This document shows, one piece after another, positions 47,047 to 62,968 of a stretch of 64,000 bases of DNA; the first letter of the stretch is position 1; each line of letters opens with the position of its first letter. The DNA lies in IMG/VR virus record IMGVR_UViG_3300032093_000037, positions 42,889-106,888 of that record; one strand, given 5' to 3'. The notes under the pieces were generated by a model that was not told the DNA's origin, made no database searches, and saw only the letters and a list, made by a program, of their open reading frames with translations. The stretch is from a virus. The position numbers and the translations under genes were made by a program.

Positions 47047-47818
47047 GAAACTTATACACTTTTCAGACTTACATATCCGTCTTTTTAAAGACCACGATTT
47101 GTATAAATCAATTTTGGAAACTGCCATTGAACAATGGAAAGAGTTGAAGCCAGAACGCATCGTGTTCACGGGTGATTTAGTTCATTCTAAAAACCAAATG
47201 ACACCTGAACTTATTGAGATGGTTAGATGGTTATTAACAGAATGTTCTTCTGTTGCTAAAACAATTATTATTCCAGGTAACCACGACTTCTTGGTTAATA
47301 ACACAGAAAGATTGGATGCTCTTTCACCTATCATTAATTCACTGAATAGTGAAAACATCGTCTATTACAAAGACAGAGGAGTTTATGAAGACGAAAACAT
47401 CAGTTGGTGTGTGTATTCACAATATCAAGGTAATATTCCGCCTGAAATTACTGAAGCGAAAGGTAAAAGAATTGGATTATTTCACGGACCAATTCAGGGA
47501 ATGAAAACAGATCTTGGGTTTGACTTTGGTGAGGAGGCATATGACGTTGAAAAGTTCGATGGGTTAGAAACCGTGTTATGTGGAGACATTCACAAAAGAC
47601 AAGAATTCAAATTCAAAACCGGTAAAGGTTATATGATTGGGAGTCCAATCCAACAAAATATTGGTGAGAGTATTGGACGACACGGTTATGGGATCTACAA
47701 TGTTGAAAGTCAAGAATATTCTTATGTAGATCTACCAAACCCAAAACCATTTCTAAAGTTCTCCATAAAATCATTTGAAGATATTGAAAATGGAACCGAA
47801 AAACTCCAAAATATTTAG
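47039..47818 (+). CDS. 47: Recombination nuclease subunit, gp47/SbcD-like
   Basis: The 259-residue metallophosphoesterase is the nuclease partner of the SbcC/Rad50-like product at 49195. Motifs: D10-x-H12 (HFSDLHIRLF), D46 (FTGDLVHS), N81-H82-D83 (IPGNHDF), H149 (LFHGPI) and D183-x-H185 (CGDIHKRQEF). These give the full two-metal site. It is shorter than T4 gp47 (339 residues): the C-terminal capping/partner-binding part is reduced. Three small genes and a membrane-protein gene now separate 47 from 46, unlike the direct neighbours in T4. Confidence 0.9.
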   Translation: MIKKLIHFSDLHIRLFKDHDLYKSILETAIEQWKELKPERIVFTGDLVHSKNQMTPELIEMVRWLLTECSSVAKTIIIPGNHDFLVNNTERLDALSPIINSLNSENIVYYKDRGVYEDENISWCVYSQYQGNIPPEITEAKGKRIGLFHGPIQGMKTDLGFDFGEEAYDVEKFDGLETVLCGDIHKRQEFKFKTGKGYMIGSPIQQNIGESIGRHGYGIYNVESQEYSYVDLPNPKPFLKFSIKSFEDIENGTEKLQNI

Positions 47819-48509
47819 TAAGGAAATGATGCAGGCGGTGTCTGCATTTTGTGAATCCAAAGAAATTAAGGATGTGGATAATTTCATTTACCTTTGTTTT
47901 AAACAAGGATTTGATATCAGAAAATATGGTCTTTTGGAAAAAACACTTAATGAAGGTGAAAAAGACTTAAAAACGGGTGAAGTTCAGGAAAAACGAGTGG
48001 AAATAGAGGTAATAAAAGAAATACGGGTGGAAGTTCCTGTCGAAGTTATTAAAGAAGTTGAGGTTATTAAAGAGGTTGAAAAGATTGTTGAAATACCTAT
48101 TGAGGTAATCAAGGAAGTTGAGAAAATAATCCACACCTCTGATGATACTCAAGTAAATGAACTGTTGTCAAAAATAGAACAGTTAAACGGAGAAATTTCG
48201 ATTAAAACTACCGAAATTGGCAGAATTAGAGAAGAATTTTCCATTAAAACGGAAGAAATGGAAAATATTTTCCAAAATAAAATGTCTGAAAAGGATGAAG
48301 ATTTAGACGAACTTAGACAAAAGTTAGACATTCTCGTAACAAATGATAAGACAAAAATGTTACAAGAAACACTCCAAAACTTAAGAAGTGAGTTACAACA
48401 AAAAAACGAACAAATAAGAGAATTGGAAAAAATAAACCGAGAACTTCTTAACGGTAATCAAAATCAAGCTTACCTTTTGAGGGGATCAAATTTAAATAGA
48501 CGAGTATGA
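47790..48509 (+). CDS. Coiled-coil protein with EVPVEVIKEVE-type repeats
   Basis: The start is the ATG at 47790 (MEPKNSKIF), inside the end of the 47-like gene; the upstream TTG at 47775 is not needed. The 239-residue product has an N-terminal helical domain (1-70), then Val/Ile/Glu/Lys/Pro repeats of the type EVPVEVIKEVEVIKEVEKIV (about 85-125), then a long coiled coil (130-225). The same repeat type occurs in the membrane protein at 53160. Lack of a signal or membrane segment indicates a cytoplasmic or virion protein. Its place between 47 and 46 is intriguing, but a functional link is not shown. Confidence 0.7.
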   Translation: MEPKNSKIFSKEMMQAVSAFCESKEIKDVDNFIYLCFKQGFDIRKYGLLEKTLNEGEKDLKTGEVQEKRVEIEVIKEIRVEVPVEVIKEVEVIKEVEKIVEIPIEVIKEVEKIIHTSDDTQVNELLSKIEQLNGEISIKTTEIGRIREEFSIKTEEMENIFQNKMSEKDEDLDELRQKLDILVTNDKTKMLQETLQNLRSELQQKNEQIRELEKINRELLNGNQNQAYLLRGSNLNRRV

Positions 48510-52160: not shown

Positions 52161-52961
52161 ATGAAAGACAAAAACACAGGGGCACCTATCAATCAGGATG
52201 AGATTTATCACTACCTTAAAGATATTAGAAAAATTAAGGTAATGACTGCAGAACGCGAACGTCATTTAGCCACACGAATGAAGTCGAATGATCTTACCTT
52301 GATTGAAAAACAACAAATTGAGGAAGAACTTTTAACAGGAAACCTACGTTTTGTAATAACAGTTGCAAAACAATATCAAAATCAAGGTTTAGATTTGTCA
52401 GATCTTATTGCAGAAGGTAATTTTGGTTTGATGAAAGCAATCAAGAACTTTGATTGGAATAAAGACTTACGTTTTATATCTTATGCTGTTTGGTGGGTTA
52501 AACAATCCATAATCCAATCTTTGAACGATAATTCGAGAACGATCCGTCTACCGGTAAACGTTGTCCAAGACTTACAAAAGGCTAAAAAGGAATTAGAGCA
52601 AACAGGAAAAAAACTTGACGACAAGTTCCAAACTTTACCATCTATCATAGATTTGGATATGAATATCAATGAAGACGGTGATACTTTGATTGATATGATT
52701 GAGAATAAAGACGCTGTAGCACCTGACGCTAGTTTTCACACAAAAGACATATTAAAAGATAAGTTAATGAGACTTTTAGATGTTTTGGATGAAAGAGAAA
52801 AAGTCATTGTAGGTGATTACTTTGGTTTAACAGGAACACCAAGAACATTGGAAGATATTGGATCTGACTTTGGTTTAACAAAAGAACGTGTTCGTCAAAT
52901 TAAAGAAAAAGCTCTTCGTAGACTTAGAAATGATTCTTCCGAATTATTTGATTATTTATAG
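52161..52961 (+). CDS. RpoD-like sigma-70 family factor
   Basis: The 266-residue protein directs host RNA polymerase to promoters. Region 1.2 (DEIYHYLKDIRKIKVMTAER), region 2.1-2.2 (LRFVITVAKQYQNQGLDLSD), region 2.3-2.4 (RFISYAVWWVKQSIIQSL), region 3, and a helix-turn-helix region 4.2 (TLEDIGSDFGLTKERVRQIK) are all present. The layout and length match the short primary sigma of Bacteroidota more than T4 gp55, which is about 185 residues and lacks region 4. It could therefore recognise both -10 and -35 elements without a gp33-type co-activator. It probably drives the late genes. The stop codon lies within the first helix of a structured RNA (52959-53090). Confidence 0.92.
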   Translation: MKDKNTGAPINQDEIYHYLKDIRKIKVMTAERERHLATRMKSNDLTLIEKQQIEEELLTGNLRFVITVAKQYQNQGLDLSDLIAEGNFGLMKAIKNFDWNKDLRFISYAVWWVKQSIIQSLNDNSRTIRLPVNVVQDLQKAKKELEQTGKKLDDKFQTLPSIIDLDMNINEDGDTLIDMIENKDAVAPDASFHTKDILKDKLMRLLDVLDEREKVIVGDYFGLTGTPRTLEDIGSDFGLTKERVRQIKEKALRRLRNDSSELFDYL

Positions 52962-53063
52962 AATGGGTTGAACCGAGATTACCCATACAACTCGGCAGAA
53001 GGTGCCTGAAGTCACCAGGGTGAAACTCCCCAATTCTATCTATACGGTAGAATGAAATTACAC
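52959..53063 (+). ncRNA. Structured RNA candidate with pseudoknot and alternative pairings
   Basis: Several helices can be drawn. ATGGGT (52963-52968) pairs with ACCCAT (52981-52986); CCGAG (52973-52977), inside that loop, pairs with CTCGG (52991-52995). Together they form a compact H-type pseudoknot with loops of 4, 3 and 4 bases. GGTG (53001-53004) pairs with CACC (53013-53016). ATTCTATC (53033-53040) pairs with GGTAGAAT (53046-53053). The same ATTCTA can instead pair with TAGAAT at 52959-52964, closing the whole domain. The domain ends in a strong terminator. No frame of useful length crosses it. I match it to no known family. It could be a small RNA released from the sigma transcript or a regulatory 3' element. 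Confidence 0.55.
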
Positions 53064-53064
53064 T

Positions 53065-53090
53065 CCCCCACTGGTACCGGTGGGGGTTTT
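53065..53090 (+). terminator. Strong GC-rich terminator
   Basis: CCCCCACTG (53065-53073), loop GTAC, CGGTGGGGG (53078-53086) with one T-G pair, followed by TTTTATTGTTTT. It is the most GC-rich hairpin in the window and ends the sigma/structured-RNA transcript. Confidence 0.9.
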
Positions 53091-53135
53091 ATTGTTTTAT
53101 AGGGTTTATAATTATCAATCATTTGATTATTTTGA

Positions 53136-53143
53136 TATTTATC
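53136..53143 (+). promoter_or_regulatory. TATTTATC late-promoter-like motif
   Basis: TATTTATC lies 16 bases before the ATG at 53160 and after the strong terminator, where a new transcript has to begin. About 40 bases of AT-rich sequence without other features lie between them. Confidence 0.5.
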
Positions 53144-53159
53144 AAATAAAACAAATTAA

Positions 53160-54383
53160 ATGAATAAAAAATTTTTACCCTGGTTTTTATTGTTTTGTGC
53201 TTTAGGATTGTCAGGGACTGCCGCTTATTATAGTGTTATAGGTTTATCAATAATTTTCTCAGCTGTTGCAATTCCTGTTATTATAATGGGATCGTTTTTA
53301 GAAATATCTAAACTTGCAATTGCAACCTATCTACACGACAAATGGAAAGAAACTTACGGAGTTTTGAAGATCTATCTTACAATGGCCCTTGTAGTTCTTT
53401 CAATTCTAACTTCTGTTGGTATCTACGGGTTACTTTCAACAGGATTCCAAAAAAATATTGCGGGTCTTGAAATTAACAATAAAGTAATTGAAAATATTGA
53501 AGTTAAAAAAACTCGATTCGAAGAAATCAAAACTGACTATCAAAAAGAGAAAAGTGTTTTGGACAAAGATATCACCAATTTAAGAAACGCCCTCTCAACT
53601 AACACAACTACCCAATCAATAGATAGAACGACGGGACAGGTCATTACAAGAGCAAATGGAGGTAATAGAAAGGCTTTTGAGACTCAGTTAAAAGTTGCTC
53701 AAGAGAATAGAGATGGAATATCAAAGAAAATTGAATCCCTTAATGATAGTATTACTAGATTAGATTTAGAAATATTAGATCTTGCTTCCACAGAAATTGA
53801 ATCAGGTGAGTTAGGTGCAATCAAGTATTTAAGTGAGATTACAGGTTGGGATGTTAAAAAAACTGCTAACTTTTTTATTCTAACTCTGATATTTGTGTTT
53901 GATCCTTTAGCAATTGCTTTAGTTATTTCTACAAACCAAGCATTTAAAATTTATAGAAGAAAAGATGAGGAAGAAGATAAAGTTGAAGATGAGTATCCTT
54001 TTTATGATGAGGTAGAAATACCTGAAAGTTATTTTGCAAATCATACCCCCCAAGTCACCCCCCAAGTCACCCCCCAAGTCGAACCTGAAATTGTTGAAAG
54101 AATTGTTGAAGTTCCTGTTGAAATTATTAAGGAAGTTGAAAAAATTGTTGAGGTTCCTGTGGAAGTTGTAAGAGAGGTTCCTGTTGATAGATTGGTTGAG
54201 GTTGTAAGAGAAGTTCCTGTTGAAGTGGTAAAAGAAATTGAGGTTCCTGTCGAGGTCCCCTTCAAATATTACGTAAACGATAATGGTCAAATATTTGATG
54301 ATCAGGGAAATGAAGTTGAAGAAAGATTGTTTAATAAAAAGTTAGAAGAGATTGAGAAGAGGGTTTTAAAATATCAAAAATAA
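53160..54383 (+). CDS. Membrane protein with coiled coil and EVPV-type repeats
   Basis: The 407-residue protein has three hydrophobic segments near the N-terminus (about residues 5-27, 30-50 and 70-93), a long charged helical loop (about 100-215), another membrane segment (about 232-258, FFILTLIFVFDPLAIALVIS), and a cytoplasmic-type tail. The tail carries three PQVT units, then repeats of the form EVPVEIIKEVEKIVEVPVEV (about 310-370), the same type as in the 47790-48509 protein. It opens the lysis region, 4 bases before the amidase gene. A holin or lysis-control role is possible, but size and topology are not those of a classic holin. Confidence 0.65.
   Translation: MNKKFLPWFLLFCALGLSGTAAYYSVIGLSIIFSAVAIPVIIMGSFLEISKLAIATYLHDKWKETYGVLKIYLTMALVVLSILTSVGIYGLLSTGFQKNIAGLEINNKVIENIEVKKTRFEEIKTDYQKEKSVLDKDITNLRNALSTNTTTQSIDRTTGQVITRANGGNRKAFETQLKVAQENRDGISKKIESLNDSITRLDLEILDLASTEIESGELGAIKYLSEITGWDVKKTANFFILTLIFVFDPLAIALVISTNQAFKIYRRKDEEEDKVEDEYPFYDEVEIPESYFANHTPQVTPQVTPQVEPEIVERIVEVPVEIIKEVEKIVEVPVEVVREVPVDRLVEVVREVPVEVVKEIEVPVEVPFKYYVNDNGQIFDDQGNEVEERLFNKKLEEIEKRVLKYQK
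54045..54080 (+). repeat. Three perfect 12-base tandem units
   Basis: ACCCCCCAAGTC is repeated three times without change (54045-54056, 54057-54068, 54069-54080), encoding repeated T-P-Q-V. The C-runs are unusual in this AT-rich genome and could be slippage-prone. Confidence 0.93.
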
Positions 54384-54386
54384 TAT

Positions 54387-54980
54387 ATGGAAATAATTGA
54401 AAATTTAATCCAAACAAACTTTAAAAAAGAAGACAAAAAAAATCAAATAGTTCTTTGTCACACATCAAGAACACTTTTTGATTATATGGTCTCAATAAAA
54501 TTTAGATTTGGTGGAAAACCTATCAGATTACCTCATTACATTATTAGTAGAGACGGTAGGATTTTGCAGTTATTAGATGAAGAATTAAATGGTTATTTTA
54601 CTAATAATGATCGAATAAATTCCAAATCAATTGTGGTTTGTTTGGAAAACTTAGGATGGTTAGAAAAAGAACCTTTAAAACACCATCACATTAATTGGAT
54701 TGGTAATATTTATAAAGAGAAAGTTTTTGATCGTAAGTGGAGAGATTATTTTTTTTGGCACCCATACACCGACATACAAGTTGAAAAAACTGCAGAGTTG
54801 TGTTTAGAGTTGACAAAAAAACATAAAATTGAAAAAAACTTTATTGGACACAACACAAAGGTAAAAGGTGTTGAGTCTTTTATGGGTATCATTACGAGAT
54901 CAAACTTTGATGAATTTGCAACGGATCTAAGTCCGGCATTTGATTTTGAAAAATTTAATAAATTGTTGAATGATGAGTAA
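54387..54980 (+). CDS. N-acetylmuramoyl-L-alanine amidase, probable endolysin
   Basis: The 197-residue protein fits the zinc amidase (Amidase_2/PGRP) fold: H25 (IVLCHTSRT), central strand ISRDGRILQLLDE, SIVVCLENLGWL, then H155 (FIGHNTKVKG) and the end block DLSPAFDFEKF with D180 in the place of the D of the usual D-P-G-P-A-F-D motif. H25, H155 and D180 would be the zinc ligands. An insertion of about 15 residues separates H155 from D180 in comparison with AmpD-like enzymes. No signal peptide, so export would need a holin. It lies in a coupled group with two spanin-like genes. Confidence 0.82.
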   Translation: MEIIENLIQTNFKKEDKKNQIVLCHTSRTLFDYMVSIKFRFGGKPIRLPHYIISRDGRILQLLDEELNGYFTNNDRINSKSIVVCLENLGWLEKEPLKHHHINWIGNIYKEKVFDRKWRDYFFWHPYTDIQVEKTAELCLELTKKHKIEKNFIGHNTKVKGVESFMGIITRSNFDEFATDLSPAFDFEKFNKLLNDE

Positions 54981-62461: not shown

Positions 62462-62968
62462 TTATAACACAATGGTTTTAATATGAAAATAGTTTTCCAA
62501 CATTACTTTCTTTTGTTGGGGTTTGTTTTTGTTGAAGAATCTAAGATAATTACCATCAAATGAATAAGTACTTGTTGGAATGACATAAACCCTGTCAGTA
62601 GACTTTTCAATTATAAATTCTAAATAATCAAAAACTTCTTCATCTTCATTGTCCTCATCTCTATAAACAAACTTTAACCTATCACCCAATGAATGATCAG
62701 CAAATGATCTAATAATTTTTGGATATTTTAATTCTATAACTTGTGATAAAATGTCGTTAGGGACCGCAACTCTTTCGTGTGTTGAAGTATCAGAGTCAAT
62801 AGAATCTAAAATTGATTGTCTTATGAAATCAAAATCTTTATTACCCTTTCTATCTATTGATTGATGACTTGAAGCATAGAATGAATTACCTCTTGGACTG
62901 ATATATAATAAATCTTCCCTGTCGGCTTGCTCGGCAATAATTGATCTTAGAGTTTGAAGCATTTTCAT
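62462..62968 (-). CDS. Hypothetical protein (minus strand)
   Basis: I choose the ATG at 62968 (MKMLQTLRSIIAEQ), giving 168 residues. The frame is open upstream to 63175, but that would overlap the methyltransferase gene on the other strand by 139 bases, and a TATTTATT motif lies exactly 5 bases before 62968. The sequence has an N-terminal helix, SFYASSHQSIDRKG, and an acidic patch (DEDNEDEEVFDYLEF). No family recognised. It is followed by the small membrane-protein gene. Confidence 0.65.
   Translation of the reverse strand: MKMLQTLRSIIAEQADREDLLYISPRGNSFYASSHQSIDRKGNKDFDFIRQSILDSIDSDTSTHERVAVPNDILSQVIELKYPKIIRSFADHSLGDRLKFVYRDEDNEDEEVFDYLEFIIEKSTDRVYVIPTSTYSFDGNYLRFFNKNKPQQKKVMLENYFHIKTIVL

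Follow-up and report, generated by a model that had tools for sequence, protein, structure and literature searches.

A structured RNA behind a phage sigma gene

We analysed a window of 64,000 nucleotides (nt) within the IMG/VR virus record IMGVR_UViG_3300032093_000037, which comprises 106,888 bases, focusing on a structured RNA in the non-coding gap behind a sigma gene. The gene directly 5' of the RNA (52161-52961) encodes a phage sigma-70-like factor and ends with the stop codon TAG (52959-52961). It is followed by the RNA itself (52963-53057), which consists of a pseudoknot and three hairpins, by an intrinsic terminator (53065-53094) and by gene C0 (53160-54383), the first gene 3' of the RNA, coding for a tetraspanin-like membrane protein; all four features are located on the plus strand. 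The original prediction, made from the letters of this DNA, had assigned the upstream gene to a phage sigma factor, and both Pfam and PHROG agree, the gene product exceeding the cut-offs for Sigma70_r1_2, r2 and r4 (regions 1.2, 2 and 4) and matching PHROG 351 with an E value of 3e-53. The region behind the gene had also been taken for the longest non-coding stretch of the window. With a crude mask of open reading frames (ORFs) of at least 80 amino acids on either strand, the gap 52962-53159 (198 bases) ranks only fifth, and the longer gaps may contain small genes.

The pseudoknot is built from stem P1, in which ATGGGT (52963-52968) pairs with ACCCAT (52981-52986), and the interleaved stem P2, in which CCGAG (52973-52977) pairs with CTCGG (52991-52995). 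Downstream lie hairpin P3 (53001-53016; strands 53001-53004 and 53013-53016), which has the form GGTG/CACC in the window copy and a TGAGA/TTCTC-like form in most relatives, hairpin P4 (53018-53030; strands 53018-53020 and 53028-53030) and the last hairpin, P5 (53033-53053; strands 53033-53038 and 53048-53053). Checked on the sequence, every helix that had been proposed is located where it had been drawn, and P4 is a short additional helix between them. The terminator stem (53065-53086) has nine pairs, seven of which are G-C, and runs into a T-rich tail; a similar hairpin with a T run stands behind most of the relatives inspected, but not behind those of the L098/L124/L156 type.

An H-type pseudoknot as good as the one in 52959-53000 was not reached in any of 2000 dinucleotide shuffles of this segment, and ten of the 2000 contained any pseudoknot of 5+5 pairs. 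By a cruder count, which ranks total pairs first so that A-T-rich pseudoknots win, 152 of 4569 window segments were as good as the site. Demanding at least 11 pairs, at least seven of them G-C, rendered the site unique in the window, the sole match on the minus strand being its own mirror image. The fold without the pseudoknot is only mildly better than that of shuffled sequences (z -2.12; 7 of 200 shuffles as good).

Covariation was evaluated for 25 pairs in 55 distinct sequences. In the drawn structure 94.5% of the pair cells are paired versus 86.5% in shuffles, changes on both sides affect 138 cells versus 45.6, and the covariation score amounts to 0.281, as compared to 0.132 for shuffled alignments and 0.052-0.087 for slid structures. 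Double compensatory changes occur in 10 of the 25 pairs, mostly in P3 and P5, with changes on both sides in four of five pairs of P3, four of six pairs of P5 (96.3% of cells paired) and one of three pairs of P4 (99.4% of cells paired). In P1, four of six pairs never vary and one is changed on both sides (16 sequences), while 18 and 10 of the 55 sequences, respectively, leave the two outer pairs open. P2 is invariant in all 55. RNAalifold, run without guidance, recovered P2, P3, P4 and P5, and the element as a whole is also captured by a covariance model, R1. Thus, the conservation and covariation that the original prediction had named as its check were observed for P3, P4, P5 and outer P1; P2 is complementary and does not vary in these sequences. 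The structured element is real and not a product of chance.

Two further searches left P2 free. The first returned 73 stretches, 57 of them at loci already known and 16 at new loci (L185-L200), where inspection revealed no member. The second returned 109 stretches with 23 newly numbered loci (L273-L295), four of them members according to R1: L277 is the same contig as L068, L288 and L292 are identical in letters to L069 and L070, and only L280 is new. No doubly changed P2 was present among the stretches from either search. In one contig, L068/L277, CCGGG replaces CCGAG and P2 is kept by a G-U instead of an A-U pair. The comparison argues that the pseudoknot sequence is under strong constraint: in 24 variants directly behind sigma (276 pairs), the 36-nt pseudoknot is on average 92% identical, as compared to 54% at third codon positions of sigma.

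Distribution, gene context and expression

Relatives of the RNA are present in approximately 94 IMG/VR contigs, a count made up of 92 core-pattern stretches of viral contigs, minus L112 and L141, plus L068, L069, L070 and L280. L112 and L141 contain the exact pattern, yet are not members, having no R1 match at E values up to 5, and the same holds for L174, the only stretch with the exact pattern among 84,980 species genomes. A search with the sigma protein, which is independent of the pattern, yielded 80 related loci. The exact RNA core is present in 44 of them and R1 adds L068, L069 and L070, giving 47 loci with the RNA within the fetched flank, so that the exact core is found in 44 of 47 carriers. 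Exactly one copy of the RNA was detected in 18 of 32 chosen whole records. Among 50,697 annotated phage records we found neither a DNA match to the 2.2 kilobases around the site nor a relative of the sigma protein with more than 60% identity, and one 129-nt relative of the RNA had no DNA match in annotated phages at E values up to 1.

The gene context was counted over 62 distinct variants of the RNA. The commonest order is C3, sigma, RNA, C0, with gene insertions on either side of the RNA. The nearest upstream gene is sigma in 28 variants, C6 in 12 and C7 in eight, with the others falling under 13 labels. Downstream, C0 is nearest in 32 variants and the convergent gene C5 in 24. In the divergent RNA types L082, L090, L098, L124 and L156, and likewise in L127 and L169, C5 adjoins the RNA, and sigma and C0 do not. 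Three records with such a neighbourhood were searched for sigma, which was located elsewhere in one and not found in two, both perhaps fragments.

Within the 130 nt preceding the RNA, 24 of the 62 variants contain the motif TAnnTTTG, as compared to an average of 5.6 and a maximum of 13 in shuffles; in 19 of the 24 it lies at a distance of 16-28 nt from the downstream GAACC core. The full TTTG/TAnnTTTG form precedes 12 variants (shuffle mean 0.33, maximum 2). PMC7366714 and PMC6847099 give a promoter motif of this type for Bacteroides and Flavobacterium, and, judged by the promoter motif alone, the hosts of the carrier phages are probably Bacteroidota. The window copy and others lack the motif, and there the RNA starts shortly after a stop codon. 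Two routes of expression are suggested by the sequences, one from a Bacteroidota-type promoter of the RNA's own and one as the tail of the preceding messenger RNA (mRNA). Sigma-70-type promoters were uninformative (10 found, 9.9 expected), and GATATTTAT as a phage promoter was unsupported, with four occurrences versus 1.96 expected and 14 of 100 shuffles scoring as high.

Taken together, we favour, with a probability of roughly 70%, the view that the element is a separate and stable small RNA, about 100-125 nt long, that acts in trans and would represent a family outside Rfam, carried by large phages probably infecting Bacteroidota. As evolution has preserved its shape, the RNA probably has a job of its own. 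The original prediction had offered two roles, a stable small RNA processed from the sigma transcript or a 3' element tuning sigma expression; we prefer the former since the RNA is also found away from sigma, either next to other genes or preceded by a promoter of its own. In the window the RNA would be the 3' end of the sigma transcript, trimmed on its 5' side, and in some relatives it would be transcribed from its own promoter. The near-invariant pseudoknot may dock a protein or a ribonucleoprotein, with hairpins P3-P5 serving as scaffold. Sequence and structure are conserved, each carrier record holds one copy, and a terminator and, in some relatives, promoter motifs are present; that the RNA is made, is stable, acts in trans and docks a protein via its pseudoknot is what we infer. 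Action in trans and protein docking are suggested because the RNA is retained beside changing neighbours, because some lineages provide it with a separate promoter and most with a terminator, and because the hairpins drift with compensation whereas the letters of the pseudoknot stay.

Several observations weigh against this reading. The 10 doubly changed pairs were matched by 18 of 500 shuffles, and the number of pair types gives no signal above shuffles (22 versus 22.0). P2, being invariant, has no double compensatory changes and so lacks proof by covariation. The apparent identity of the pseudoknot is inflated, as the pattern used to gather most variants prescribes part of its sequence. The shuffles used for the promoter motif keep base composition only, and the variants are related. 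Most copies directly behind sigma, C6 or C7 have no promoter motif, which leaves room for a role in cis at these sites, and 14 of the 32 chosen records have no RNA, many of the records being fragments.

Several neighbouring genes and sequences showed features of their own. C6, located between sigma and the RNA in L066, L073, L076 and others, encodes a zinc-ribbon protein of about 140-150 amino acids that matches the restriction alleviation protein Lar below threshold (19.8 bits, cut-off 28.6). The structure model of C7, which precedes the RNA in some relatives, was unusable (predicted local distance difference test (pLDDT) score of 41). A paralogue of C7 lies on the minus strand of the window (62510-62878; 29% identity over residues 38-163, E 3.7e-13, in an open frame of 246 amino acids). 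Before C7 in L024, L027, L085, L088, L097 and L123, inspection by eye revealed a promoter-driven leader, ACAAACGACGAGAGATATCATCAAGTTTGTCGGG..., maybe a third structured RNA. A potential fourth small RNA was likewise noticed by eye behind sigma in L012 and L046/L229, where a TATCTTTG motif is followed by short GTCAGAATAC repeats and a small terminator hairpin. C0 and the protein encoded at 47775-48509 both have repeats of the type VEVPVEVIKEVEKIVEVP, and the C0 gene also contains the tandem DNA repeat CCCAAGTCACC near 54045. The window further encodes an Amidase_2 domain protein, likely an endolysin (54387-54980).

Gene C5 and RNA family B

Among possible partners of the RNA, the candidate with most support, itself tentative, is an endoribonuclease of RelE/RegB fold, from phage or host. 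The RNA might specifically be the partner of the convergent C5 product, acting as inhibitor, decoy or specificity factor of a RelE/RegB-fold protein and thus resembling an RNA antitoxin outside the type III family. We regard this as possible, if rather unlikely. C5 is the nearest neighbour of the RNA in 26 of the 62 variants, including the divergent types named above. Approached from the protein side, 11 of 32 C5 loci have the RNA at the 3' end of C5 and nine have the motif of a second RNA family, B; neither was present in 12, one of which, L232, is incomplete. C5 is also absent from all 17 variants with the GGTG form of P3 and present in 26 of 41 with the other form (the form being unclear in four more), but relatedness confounds this association, and the site is a hotspot for insertions in general. 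No C5 is detectable in the record of the window itself, most sigma-adjacent copies of the RNA have no C5, and C5 occurs without the RNA in L216-L226 and in the huge-phage record LR745206.1. Because C5 and the RNA also occur apart, the link between them is suggestive and not obligatory.

A structure model of C5, computed from a 12-member alignment (pLDDT 74), aligns with RelE/HigB/ParE/YoeB chains at Z values of about 4-5.4 and with T4 RegB at a Z value of 4.4 over 100 residues. However, Z values in the range of the toxins were also obtained for TrmO (5.1) and a transpeptidase (4.9), and the tool itself warns that values of this size may reflect merely a common arrangement. In the viral structure library BFVD the best match was an unnamed protein of Tenacibaculum phage PTm1 (E 1e-7), and a phage RNA endonuclease followed (5e-4). 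A Foldseek search of the PDB gave no match at E 0.001, the best being a ribosomal protein at 0.12. The weak similarity of the predicted fold to T4 RegB is not matched on the sequence level, as neither a profile search against PDB sequences nor a Pfam scan of the 12 members returned RegB.

Family B is a second, unrelated RNA-like gene with the conserved motif ACGATTNAGATAC and hairpin loops such as AAGAAACAAG. The motif is present in 22 of 232 loci and often preceded by TAnnTTTG, and it lies beside C5 in L209-L215, L227 and L228 and at the sigma loci L015, L016, L023-L026, L037-L039, L041 and L074. Five scanned loci with the motif at C5 gave no Rfam match. In other phages, the site of family B is taken by the present RNA. 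It was rejected as a general replacement, as most non-carriers lack it and L024 and L026 hold both RNAs. On the level of whole records the motif was found in three of 33, and in none of the 18 RNA carriers or the record of the window.

Known RNA families and alternative roles

The original prediction recognised no known family, and a search of the window with Rfam 15 confirmed this, giving no match at gathering thresholds; 13 related loci likewise gave none. A relaxed scan produced five sub-threshold matches, all far below their gathering scores. The top one, snR68 (28.5 bits, threshold 80), spans the terminator and the A-T-rich stretch behind it and was rejected. No Rfam ribozyme was matched in either the strict or the relaxed search. 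A word search of the open-licence literature did not retrieve such an RNA, which does not establish its absence from print. Compared by description, the RNA is similar to RNAC and RNAD of T4, which according to PMC3014915 are also small RNAs of a large lytic phage with unknown role, but ARAGORN detected no transfer RNA (tRNA) or transfer-messenger RNA gene in the present window. The leader of T4-type gene 32 is a phage H-type pseudoknot as well, one bound by protein according to PMC3014915; it is, however, a 5' operator of one gene, whereas the present RNA stands behind genes or alone and is followed by a terminator.

The element could also work in cis, as a stabilising or regulatory 3' untranslated region of the sigma (or C6, C7) mRNA, with no separate RNA being formed. 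In many relatives sigma, C6 or C7 ends about 4-25 nt before the start of the RNA, mostly with no promoter motif, as a role of this kind would predict. Considering that the same RNA occurs elsewhere with its own promoter and no sigma gene beside it, and that 33 of the 80 sigma loci have no RNA within the fetched flank, we judge a purely cis-acting element improbable.

H-type pseudoknots are also characteristic of the type III antitoxin RNAs ToxI and CptI and of the pseudo-ToxI of phage PhiTE, as described in PMC5086642 and PMC3475682. The present RNA has two interleaved, complementary and conserved stems that would form a pseudoknot of this type, P2 being invariant and thus showing no double compensatory change, and in some relatives it is near a gene of possible RNase fold. 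In contrast to these antitoxins it is a single copy with no tandem repeats in each listed locus and in the 18 carrier records, it has three further hairpins, and it is not located upstream of a toxin in one operon, its neighbours being sigma and C0 here and the convergent C5 in some relatives. On the sequences compared, membership in the type III antitoxins fails on repeats and operon order. By analogy with PhiTE, whose pseudo-ToxI counteracts ToxIN (PMC3475682), the RNA might be a decoy against host defence, and a phage-encoded H-type pseudoknot of patchy distribution would be consistent with this role. The lack of repeats and of any Rfam match, together with a sequence that is nearly constant among divergent phages, where an arms race would be expected to drive change, makes a decoy a poor candidate.

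The original prediction also suggested a switch, as ATTCTA (53033-53038) has two possible TAGAAT partners. Both partners exist, but only the one within hairpin P5 is conserved: 57.6% of cells are paired in the alternative between 53033-53038 and 52959-52964 versus 96.3% for P5, and the score of this alternative, 0.132, although reached by only one of 500 shuffles, is close to that of a slid control (0.120). The RNA has no tie to a same-strand downstream gene in the 62 variants, where C0 and the convergent C5 follow 32 and 24 times, respectively, and therefore no fixed place before such a gene as is typical of a riboswitch. Judged by this pairing and by the gene order, a riboswitch or RNA thermometer operating by mutually exclusive pairings is very improbable. 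Chance folding around an ordinary terminator, for which only the mild z-score of the pseudoknot-free fold would speak, is hardly credible in view of the covariation, the shuffle test, the uniqueness within the window and the relatives in about 94 contigs.

Beyond the favoured reading of a discrete, trans-acting small RNA, a more far-reaching and quite speculative possibility, which we consider unlikely, is that the RNA belongs to a new class of phage ribonucleoprotein regulators, in which a pseudoknot RNA would control or specify mRNA endonucleases of RelE/RegB type. Together with family B it would then be one of several interchangeable RNA genes at a hotspot by sigma, and might change mRNA use during infection of Bacteroidota. 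The covariation, the near-invariant pseudoknot, the single copy and the dozens of variants make the role of such phage RNAs directly testable, and the occasional company of C5, a gene of possible RNase fold, and the occurrence of family B at the same place in other phages suggest that phages of Bacteroidota possess a repertoire of RNA genes overlooked by protein- and Rfam-based annotation.
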